From contig NZ_BAIS01000002.1 of the NCBI RefSeq assembly GCF_000613345.1, positions 1 to 64,000 on the forward strand: a DNA stretch of 64,000 bases, read 5' to 3'. The position numbers and the translations under genes were made by a program. Positions 61,715-64,000 of this stretch are shown in pieces. The notes below the pieces were generated by a model. That model made no database searches and was not told where the DNA came from. It saw nothing but the letters and a program-made list of their open reading frames with translations. This DNA comes from Prevotella disiens JCM 6334 = ATCC 29426 (lineage in GTDB: Bacteria > Bacteroidota > Bacteroidia > Bacteroidales > Bacteroidaceae). Each line of letters starts with the position of its first letter. The stretch's first letter is position 1.

Positions 61715-62320
61715 TTAAACCTGAAAGTTATTCAGCCGGGCAATATATTTACCGAGTATATCAAACTCAAGATTTACAATTGTACCGATTTGAATATCTG
61801 CAAAATTAGTGTTTTCGCGTGTATATGGGATAATCGCAACTTTAAAAGTATTATCAGTTGGCTCGCAAACGGTTAGCGATACACCATTGACTGTTACCGA
61901 ACCTTTATCGACTGTGAAGTATCCACGTTTTGCCAATTCAATGTCTTGTTCATATTCAAAGGTGAAATAAGTACTACCATCAGCATTTTCCATTGCAACA
62001 CATTTTGCTGTTTCATCAACATGACCTTGTACAATATGTCCATCAAGGCGACCATTCATCAACATGGAACGCTCTATGTTCACTCTGTCGCCAATTTTTA
62101 ACAAGCCAAGATTAGAGCGGTCTAATGTTTCTTTCATTGCCGTAACGGTGTAAGTATCATCAGTCAAGCGTACTACGGTAAGACAAACACCATTATGAGC
62201 AATGCTTTGGTCTATTTTTAATTCATTAACGTATGTACATTTCAGCGTGAAATCTATATTTTCTTGATAACGTTCAATAGCTACTACTTGTGCCATTTCT
62301 TCTACTATACCTGAGAACAT
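61715..62320 (-). CDS. ribE: Riboflavin synthase alpha chain
   Basis: Dismutates two lumazine molecules to riboflavin. 201 residues made of two similar lumazine-binding domains (MFSGIVEEMAQV and, about residue 96 on, LDGHIVQGHVDETAKC). IAHNGVCLTV and GSVTVNGVSLTV are the matching repeats. The region just upstream on the same strand holds a structured RNA with a terminator, so ribE either has its own promoter or depends on read-through. No other riboflavin genes are nearby. Confidence 0.96.
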   Translation of the reverse strand: MFSGIVEEMAQVVAIERYQENIDFTLKCTYVNELKIDQSIAHNGVCLTVVRLTDDTYTVTAMKETLDRSNLGLLKIGDRVNIERSMLMNGRLDGHIVQGHVDETAKCVAMENADGSTYFTFEYEQDIELAKRGYFTVDKGSVTVNGVSLTVCEPTDNTFKVAIIPYTRENTNFADIQIGTIVNLEFDILGKYIARLNNFQV

Positions 62321-62367: not shown

Positions 62368-62402
62368 TAAAAAAGGTGGAACTCCAAAAGGAACTCCACC
62401 TC
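62368..62402 (-). terminator. Terminator of the candidate RNA, upstream of ribE
   Basis: On the minus strand, AGGTGGA and TCCACCT (62401-62395 with 62380-62374) close a stem, continued by TCC/GGA around a TTTT loop, and followed by six Ts. It ends 48 bp before the ribE start codon. Confidence 0.85.
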
Positions 62403-62631
62403 ATTATTATCTCTCTATGACGAGAGTTTTAGAAAGTCGCATCGATGATGTGATGAAAAGTCCGAGTATCTATGATAGGAGAACTCTCCGCTTTTGTAAT
62501 CCACCGACCCAAGGGTTTAGTCGCTAATGCGATTTATGTGGCCCGCCATTGTCAAGAGAAGTCTTCTCGGTTTTCAGATTTATTTGATGACTATCCCAAT
62601 CGAATCGACACGACTATGTCTTTACCTTTCA
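62368..62631 (-). ncRNA. Candidate structured non-coding RNA (6S-like or ribE leader)
   Basis: About 264 nt without a gene, bounded by a consensus promoter and an intrinsic terminator on the minus strand. Long-range pairing is visible: 62604-62615 with 62435-62446 (12 bp, two G-U), and inside it 62566-62576 with 62454-62466 (11 bp with a 2-nt bulge). Smaller hairpins include TCGC-ATTA-GCGA near 62517-62528. The 181-nt core closed by its own ends, with a wide internal loop, recalls 6S RNA, but I do not recognise conserved 6S sequence. It does not match the FMN, TPP, cobalamin or SAM riboswitch consensus I know. Identity is open. Confidence 0.6.
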
Positions 62632-62635
62632 AATG

Positions 62636-62666
62636 CAAAGGTAATACATTTTTTCAATGTACCAAA
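62636..62666 (-). promoter_or_regulatory. Promoter of the candidate RNA
   Basis: On the minus strand, TTTG (62666-62663), exactly 19 nt, TACCTTTG (62643-62636): a perfect Bacteroidetes promoter beginning 10 bp after the lpd stop. No protein-coding gene of more than 11 codons follows before the terminator. Confidence 0.8.
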
Positions 62667-62675
62667 CAGTTGCAC

Positions 62676-64000
62676 TTAAATTATGGTTTCAAGCAATACT
62701 TCACCAATAGTTGGGTGAATATGAATAATGTCACGCAAATCATTGAGCGTAGCATCATTGTTCATAAGTACTGCAACTTGTTGTGTAATATCAGCAGAGT
62801 GGGCACCAAAGACGTGGCAACCAATGATTTTACCATTTTCGTCAGCCATAACTTTGAGCATGCCTTCGGTTTCTTCCATTGCCAATGCCTTACCATTTGA
62901 ACGGAAAAAGCCTTTCTTCACAATACACTTGATACCTTCTTTCTTGCAAGCATCTTCGGACATACCTACTGAACCTGCTTCTGGATAGGTAAATACGGCA
63001 GCTGGCATAATATCGAAACGAATCTTATCTTGCTTGTTCATGATATGATTCAAGACGTGTAAACCTTGGAAACTTGCTGCATGAGCCAACATTTGCTTTC
63101 CATTCACATCGCCAATAGCATAAACGCCTGGTACGTTGGTTTCATAGTAATCGTTGGTTTCAATACCTTGTTTAATAGTATTTATGCCTGCAACTTCCAA
63201 ACCAAGACCTTCAACATTAGCAGCACGACCTGTTGCAACAAGTACAACATCGGCAACGACTTGCTTTTCTTGACCTTTTTGTTCAAAAGTAACGACAGCT
63301 TGTTTCTTGTCTTCTGTTGCTTGAATGCTCTTAACACCACTATTCATATTGAAATTGATTCCACGTTTTTCCAAAGTCTTGCGCAAACGCTTGGCAATAT
63401 CTGAATCTATCGTTGGCAAACATTCCTTGAGGAACTCAATAACAGTAACAGAGCTACCGAAAGTTTCAAACGCAGAAGCAAGTTCAAGTCCAATAACACC
63501 AGCACCAATGATAGCCATTGAGTTAGGAACATGGTCAATTTCCAACAATTCAGTAGAAGTCATAACCTTATCCTTGAGGTCTGTACCTTCAGGAGAATCC
63601 AAAGTTGGTATAAAAGGAAGCATTCTTGCACGAGAACCTGTTGCAATAATAATATTGTCAGCAGTCATTTGTGTCCCATTCACTTCAATAACTTTCTTGT
63701 CAACGAATTTGGCTTCACCTTCAATATAAGTGATGCCAGGTTGTGCCATAAGGCCTTTTACACCTTCACGCAACTGTGCAATCACGTCATTTTTACGTTC
63801 TTGAATGCGAGTGAAGTTCACATGACCACCGCCTACGCATGAAAGCAATGGATTGCGATAGAGTTCTGCATCGTGAGCAAAACTCTTTGTTGGTATGCAA
63901 CCACAATTAAGGCATGTTCCACCAGGGTGGGATTTCTCAATGATGGTTACCTTTAGCCCTTCTTTGGCAGCATGAACTGCCGTATGGTAGCCTCCAGGAC
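62676..64000 (-). CDS. lpd: Dihydrolipoyl dehydrogenase, N-terminus beyond the window
   Basis: FAD-dependent disulfide oxidoreductase (E3) of 2-oxoacid dehydrogenase or glycine cleavage complexes. The frame is open to the right edge. Upstream of the internal TTG at 63848 it reads PGGYHTAVHAAKEGLKV and then GGTCLNCGCIPTKS, the redox-active disulfide. The NAD-binding GAGVIGLELASAF, YAIGDVNG, and the C-terminal HIHPTIGEVLLE with the catalytic histidine are present. The first few residues (FAD-binding GxGxxG) are cut off by the edge. Confidence 0.95.
   Translation of the reverse strand, partial: PGGYHTAVHAAKEGLKVTIIEKSHPGGTCLNCGCIPTKSFAHDAELYRNPLLSCVGGGHVNFTRIQERKNDVIAQLREGVKGLMAQPGITYIEGEAKFVDKKVIEVNGTQMTADNIIIATGSRARMLPFIPTLDSPEGTDLKDKVMTSTELLEIDHVPNSMAIIGAGVIGLELASAFETFGSSVTVIEFLKECLPTIDSDIAKRLRKTLEKRGINFNMNSGVKSIQATEDKKQAVVTFEQKGQEKQVVADVVLVATGRAANVEGLGLEVAGINTIKQGIETNDYYETNVPGVYAIGDVNGKQMLAHAASFQGLHVLNHIMNKQDKIRFDIMPAAVFTYPEAGSVGMSEDACKKEGIKCIVKKGFFRSNGKALAMEETEGMLKVMADENGKIIGCHVFGAHSADITQQVAVLMNNDATLNDLRDIIHIHPTIGEVLLETII

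Follow-up and report, generated by a model that had tools for sequence, protein, structure and literature searches.

On the minus strand of the stretch of Prevotella disiens DNA analysed here, 64,000 nt in length and referred to as the window, the genes for dihydrolipoyl dehydrogenase (lpd) and riboflavin synthase (ribE) flank a spacer that holds, in a row, a promoter, a conserved RNA and an intrinsic terminator (Table 1). Such a gene, with a promoter and a terminator in line on the minus strand and no other gene inside, had been placed between lpd and ribE by the original prediction, and the layout is borne out on each of these points. The flanking genes are identified by profile matches, with lpd being cut by the end of the window, and the promoter elements stand directly after the lpd stop codon. 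The terminator is a 13-pair hairpin running from 62402 to 62373 and followed by Ts, with the terminator scan returning 4 such sites in 4 kb against 2.4 expected. In a program-made listing of open reading frames, the minus strand has no frame of at least 60 aa within the interval, and a mechanical 142-aa frame (62472-62900) crosses it on the plus strand.

Table 1. Features of the lpd-ribE spacer and its flanking genes in the window.
Feature	Position	Strand	Basis or remark
lpd, dihydrolipoyl dehydrogenase gene on the upstream side, truncated at window end	62676..64000	-	TIGR01350.1, 441 bits, cut-off 408.8
-33 element TTTG, Bacteroidetes housekeeping-type promoter	62663..62666	-	sequence; consensus from PMC7366714
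-7 element TACCTTTG (TAnnTTTG)	62636..62643	-	sequence; motif upstream in 60/65 loci
6S RNA	62429..62615	-	RF01693 full-length match; 187 nt conserved
Closing stem P1, 5' strand	62604..62615	-	12/12 pairs changed on both sides, 47 sequences
Closing stem P1, 3' strand	62435..62446	-	same covariation as the 5' strand
Helix P2, 5' strand (AGU)	62590..62592	-	partners 62461, 62460, 62458; included in RNAalifold consensus
5' internal loop, 18-20 nt depending on the closing helix	62571..62588	-	conserved CAUCAA; unpaired in RNAalifold consensus
Proposed helix P3, 5' strand (CCGAG)	62566..62570	-	partner 62462-62466 (CUCGG)
Intrinsic terminator in the 6S-ribE gap (hairpin with T run)	62373..62402	-	terminator scan; -18.3 kcal/mol
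ribE (riboflavin synthase), downstream neighbour	61715..62320	-	NF006767.1 and TIGR00187.1 above cut-off

Promoters of Bacteroides follow a consensus of TTTG near -33 and TAnnTTTG near -7 (PMC7366714), with which the TTTG and TACCTTTG elements of the window agree, and transcription would start near 62632. Because a sigma-70 scan yields no promoter at 62636-62666, the promoter is not of the E. coli type. Taken alone the pattern is weak evidence, since the window contains 16 matches to its spaced form where chance alone would give 6.6. Across loci, 60 of 65, the window's own included, have TAnnTTTG in the 80 nt that precede the RNA, where 500 mononucleotide shuffles of the same upstream stretches averaged 3.3 and never exceeded 8; a random 80-nt stretch from the loci contains the motif in 4.4% of cases. 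The distance from motif to RNA differs among loci, and in some of them it is probably not the actual promoter. These 65 loci, on which the neighbour counts below also rest, include the copy in the window (L001) and leave out six duplicates, L060-L065.

An Rfam scan assigns the RNA to RF01693 (Bacteroidales-1), the match spanning model positions 1-179 of 179 with 118.6 bits and an E-value of 4.5e-19, the gathering score being 60 bits. It is the sole Rfam match at gathering score in the 64-kb window; a riboswitch or leader family was consequently rejected, as were L20_leader, snoRNA and other low-ranking rows, all far under their cut-offs. Rfam describes the family as '6S-Bacteroidales RNA suggested'. 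The models of generic 6S RNA (RF00013) and 6S-Flavo (RF01685) gave no match in the stretch, even at E-values up to 10. The original prediction had remarked on a likeness to 6S RNA in size and shape, which the full-length match supports, and the search against Rfam covariance models that it proposed returned precisely this suggested 6S family. Its label of an unassigned RNA fails, because the standard scan assigns the stretch to RF01693, and where it left room for either a new RNA or a diverged form of a known one, the RNA is a known one. The feature is thereby settled as a member of a catalogued RNA family. A test for a conserved coding frame was uninformative, with 28 of 282 frames open over the full length (47 rows of 161-200 nt) and no sign of a conserved frame.

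RF01693 is a regular component of the family of genomes to which the window belongs. One match is present in the P. disiens genome (93.9% complete), and among 151 sampled family genomes the model scores above cut-off in 146, covering 30 of 30 genera, with 5 genomes in which it was not found. Each of the 146 carries a single match, G065 excepted: its assembly, 81% complete, holds three on three contigs (C107, C214 and C219), representing either real copies or a mixed assembly. Class-wide, RF01693 was detected in 14 of 198 genomes; 6 exceed the cut-off, 5 of them from the window's family, and the control genome of Bacteroides ihuae carries it as well. Membership of the window RNA in RF01693 is consequently congruent on both score and lineage, as the full model passes the gathering threshold and the family occurs in Bacteroidales. 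The RNAs of the family share the conserved core and the order of elements with the window RNA.

The secondary structure was assessed on an alignment (A1) of the window and 46 hand-picked sequences from the 64 other loci. Left out were the reverse-stored L003, L006, L007, L012, L013, L014, L017, L018, L025, L028, L029, L030 and L031, together with L004, L015, L044, L067 and L068, with long inserts in L044 and L068. The long-range stem proposed originally, pairing 62604-62615 with 62435-62446, is present and passes the test for compensatory changes put forward with it: all 12 pairs show such changes in the 47 sequences, 88.7% of cells are paired and 91 cells carry changes on both sides. Five hundred shuffles, which do not preserve relatedness, averaged 7.9 pairs, 73.6% of cells paired and 24.8 both-side cells, and none reached the observed values. 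Versions of the stem slid along the alignment do preserve relatedness and gave 6-10 pairs, 32-52% of cells paired and 17-32 both-side cells, a comparison that favours a structure drawn from the same sequences, above all on cells paired. The consensus from RNAalifold comprises 36 pairs, 24 of which have a both-side change in at least one sequence. Since the Rfam consensus structure of RF01693 leaves the ends unpaired, covariation support is gained here for a closing stem that the model does not pair.

Relative to the Rfam structure, the window RNA thus differs in a closing stem backed by covariation and in a helix P2 backed by pairs that are kept in nearly every row. P2 is ACUC/GAGU in the majority of rows; three of the 47, the window and two congeners, have AGUC/GACU. 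At pair 25-156 C-G is found in 43, G-C in 3 and U-G in 1 of the 47 rows, so that the window RNA departs from the family by a C-G to G-C swap also seen in 2 of the other 46. On the 5' side, columns 30-51, corresponding to 20 nt in the window, are unpaired in the RNAalifold consensus and include CATCAA in 41 and CAAA in 27 of the 47 rows. A further helix P3 (CCGAG/CUCGG) is possible, its five pairs being standard in 46, 45, 42, 41 and 35 of 47 rows; it is absent from the RNAalifold consensus, where GAG instead pairs with CUC of columns 162-164. With either arrangement the 5' loop is predicted to remain unpaired. Folding of the single sequence was rejected as proof, the 187-nt core reaching z = -1.0 (31 of 200 shuffles as good); the transcript including the terminator reaches z = -2.6 (2 of 200).

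The canonical 6S RNA consists of a closing stem, a large 5' bulge and an apical stem (PMC8414754). The window RNA has the first of these, a closing stem that joins both ends of the RNA with all 12 pairs covarying, and between its closing and apical stems it is predicted to open into a large internal loop on the 5' strand. The RF00013 type, represented by E. coli ssrS, is similar in length and layout, and its model gives no match anywhere in the window's genome, with matches in 5 of 14 control genomes. RF01685 likewise lacks matches in the window's genome and in the controls; the model does find 7 of the 198 class-wide genomes, one over cut-off. The two models, RF01693 and 6S-Flavo, coincide in position and strand at three loci, L152, L153 and L159, none of them from the order of the window; genomes G171 and G312 supply two of these, and L159 was added under laxer filters. 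The ends AACTCAAC and GGAGTTT of the 6S-Flavo consensus are common to L152 and L153 and resemble ACTCATCA and GGAGTTT of RF01693. We read these coincidences as weak hints of a shared ancestry that fall short of proof, because RF01693 scores just 33-41 bits there, below its cut-off, and the 6S-Flavo match at L159 has an E-value of 0.05, with L152 alone passing the 6S-Flavo cut-off. The two models may describe one RNA.

PMC7366714 reports that B. thetaiotaomicron has a 6S RNA, along with product RNAs of two classes, and credits the prediction of the Bacteroides 6S to Wehner et al. 2014. We infer that this RNA is the same as RF01693; it differs from the window RNA in its surroundings, with ribE next to the RNA in none of the 55 loci from other genera. 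In a Flavobacterium, 6S RNA is named among the known RNAs detected (PMC9723704); PMC5581868 and PMC7160235 contribute nothing to the question. The 2010 paper that defined the Bacteroidales-1 motif enters it as an RNA, with a '?' for a cis role (PMC2864571). Gene layout, closing stem and family match are direct observations in P. disiens, and we conclude with high confidence that the stretch is a 6S RNA gene, served by a Bacteroidetes housekeeping-type promoter of its own that follows lpd closely, and bounded on the ribE side by a terminator.

How such an RNA would work can be outlined by analogy. 6S RNA is a small RNA believed to sequester the RNA polymerase of the cell and set it free again. 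Mechanistically, it is described as a mimic of promoter DNA that binds the housekeeping polymerase and is freed once the polymerase transcribes one strand of the open loop into product RNAs (PMC10406553, PMC8414754). The window RNA is predicted to fold as a rod, composed of the covarying closing stem, an asymmetric internal loop with CAUCAA in its 5' strand, and an apical part bearing the conserved core of GGCGGGCC and GGUGGAUUACAAA. As in known 6S RNAs, this rod would imitate an open promoter and bind RNA polymerase with the main sigma factor as growth slows; release would follow when the polymerase transcribes the 5' strand of the loop to give short product RNAs. The 5' loop (62571-62588) would accordingly be the putative template strand. 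An exact mimicry of the -7 element by this loop is not claimed, as CAAA, the complement of TTTG, occurs in just the 27 rows given above. In P. disiens itself, transcription of the gene, polymerase binding, release and product RNAs would be expected on the same grounds.

The genomic neighbourhood of the RNA is variable. Upstream, lpd is found in 2 of the 65 loci. Downstream, searches with the window proteins place ribE 17-198 nt from the RNA, in the same orientation, at all 10 loci of the window's genus; in the fetched downstream sequence (mostly about 1.5 kb; under 160 nt in 3 cases) none of the 55 loci from other genera has it. A tRNA-Ser (cga) gene was observed near the 6S gene in 6 of the 22 loci scanned (L044, L051, L052, L053, L059 and L068). 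Seen from the other side, the best 80 of at least 554 ribE loci (L072-L151) all belong to genera named as Prevotellaceae, the best named ones being Prevotella with up to 88% identity, and 75 of these 80 have a 6S-like match upstream of ribE on the same strand.

These data bear on an alternative raised by the original prediction, a long leader that controls ribE by termination. Spelled out, the RNA would act in cis, sense a signal, for example a flavin, and decide on passage through the terminator into the gene. The terminator of the window does sit between the RNA and ribE, no TAnnTTTG is present within 150 nt before the ribE start of the window, and the order of RNA and ribE recurs in the 75 Prevotellaceae loci just described. 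As a general function the leader fails, because the RNA is followed by ribE at each of the 10 loci of the genus and, within the sequence fetched, at none of the 55 elsewhere; a position upstream of ribE is hence not conserved wherever the RNA occurs. The tRNA-Ser neighbours, and the lack of any riboswitch or leader family at gathering score in the window, likewise speak against it, leaving the leader without support as a general function and, to our judgement, very unlikely.

More improbable still is a small RNA of Bacteroidales that acts in trans by another mechanism and has no relationship to 6S. Such an RNA would be compatible with the failure of the generic 6S model to match and with an Rfam label that says no more than 'suggested'. 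It is opposed by the coincidence with 6S-Flavo at three loci, by the 6S-like layout and length, by the presence of RF01693 in nearly all genomes of the family, and by the product RNAs reported for the Bacteroides 6S (PMC7366714). That the spacer represents a chance arrangement devoid of RNA function draws on the ordinary folding energy of the core and on the recurrence of the promoter pattern in the window; faced with a covarying closing stem and with conservation in 146 of 151 genomes, we consider its probability negligible. The 6S RNA gene in the window is real and well supported, of a family that is already catalogued, and as such the finding is largely ordinary, except for its placement just ahead of a riboflavin gene in Prevotella relatives.

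That placement was characterized further in the 75 linked loci, where the gap from 6S to ribE spans 25-403 nt. In 72 of them TAnnTTTG occurs in the 80 nt ahead of the 6S match, in 3 it occurs in the gap, and in 4 anywhere from the 6S start to ribE. Within 110 nt before ribE the element is present in 3 of 75 linked loci versus 12 of 25 unlinked loci of other genera (Fisher p = 1.4e-6, with relatedness ignored). The unlinked controls are the best 30 of 53 matches after removal of 4 with 6S nearby and of L181, which starts at a contig end; some of them seem to abut an upstream coding region. A folding-based search found a separate hairpin as terminator in 32 of the 75 gaps and, in 44, a T run where the closing stem lies; 13 gaps have both and 12 have neither. 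A search restricted to mismatch-free stems gave terminators in 12 of 75.

Among the 80 ribE loci, five lack a 6S match. Two of these, from Segatella copri (L088 and L089), have TATCTTTG at -47. A third, L150, is cut by a contig end and shows an apparent 6S 3' end and a TAnnTTTG at -51; were it counted as linked, there would be 76 linked loci and 4 elements. The remaining two, L085 and L112, have neither a 6S match nor a TAnnTTTG element of their own, which tells against a simple rule.

Since the gap seldom holds a second housekeeping promoter element, a shared transcript of 6S and ribE is suggested, and we take ribE to be transcribed often by read-through that begins at the 6S promoter. On a more specific, tentative account, which we find conceivable yet place somewhat short of probable, the 6S gene of Prevotellaceae opens a shared 6S-ribE unit in which the promoter of ribE itself has been lost and the gene is reached by read-through past the closing stem or terminator. 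Against read-through, other sigma factors or weak promoters may serve ribE from sequences that escape the exact TAnnTTTG motif. A narrow literature search combining '6S RNA' and 'riboflavin synthase' returned only a comparison of Streptomyces and E. coli. The arrangement in Prevotella relatives poses the question of whether a 6S promoter also drives a metabolic gene; if so, the output of riboflavin synthase would be tied to the transcription of 6S RNA.
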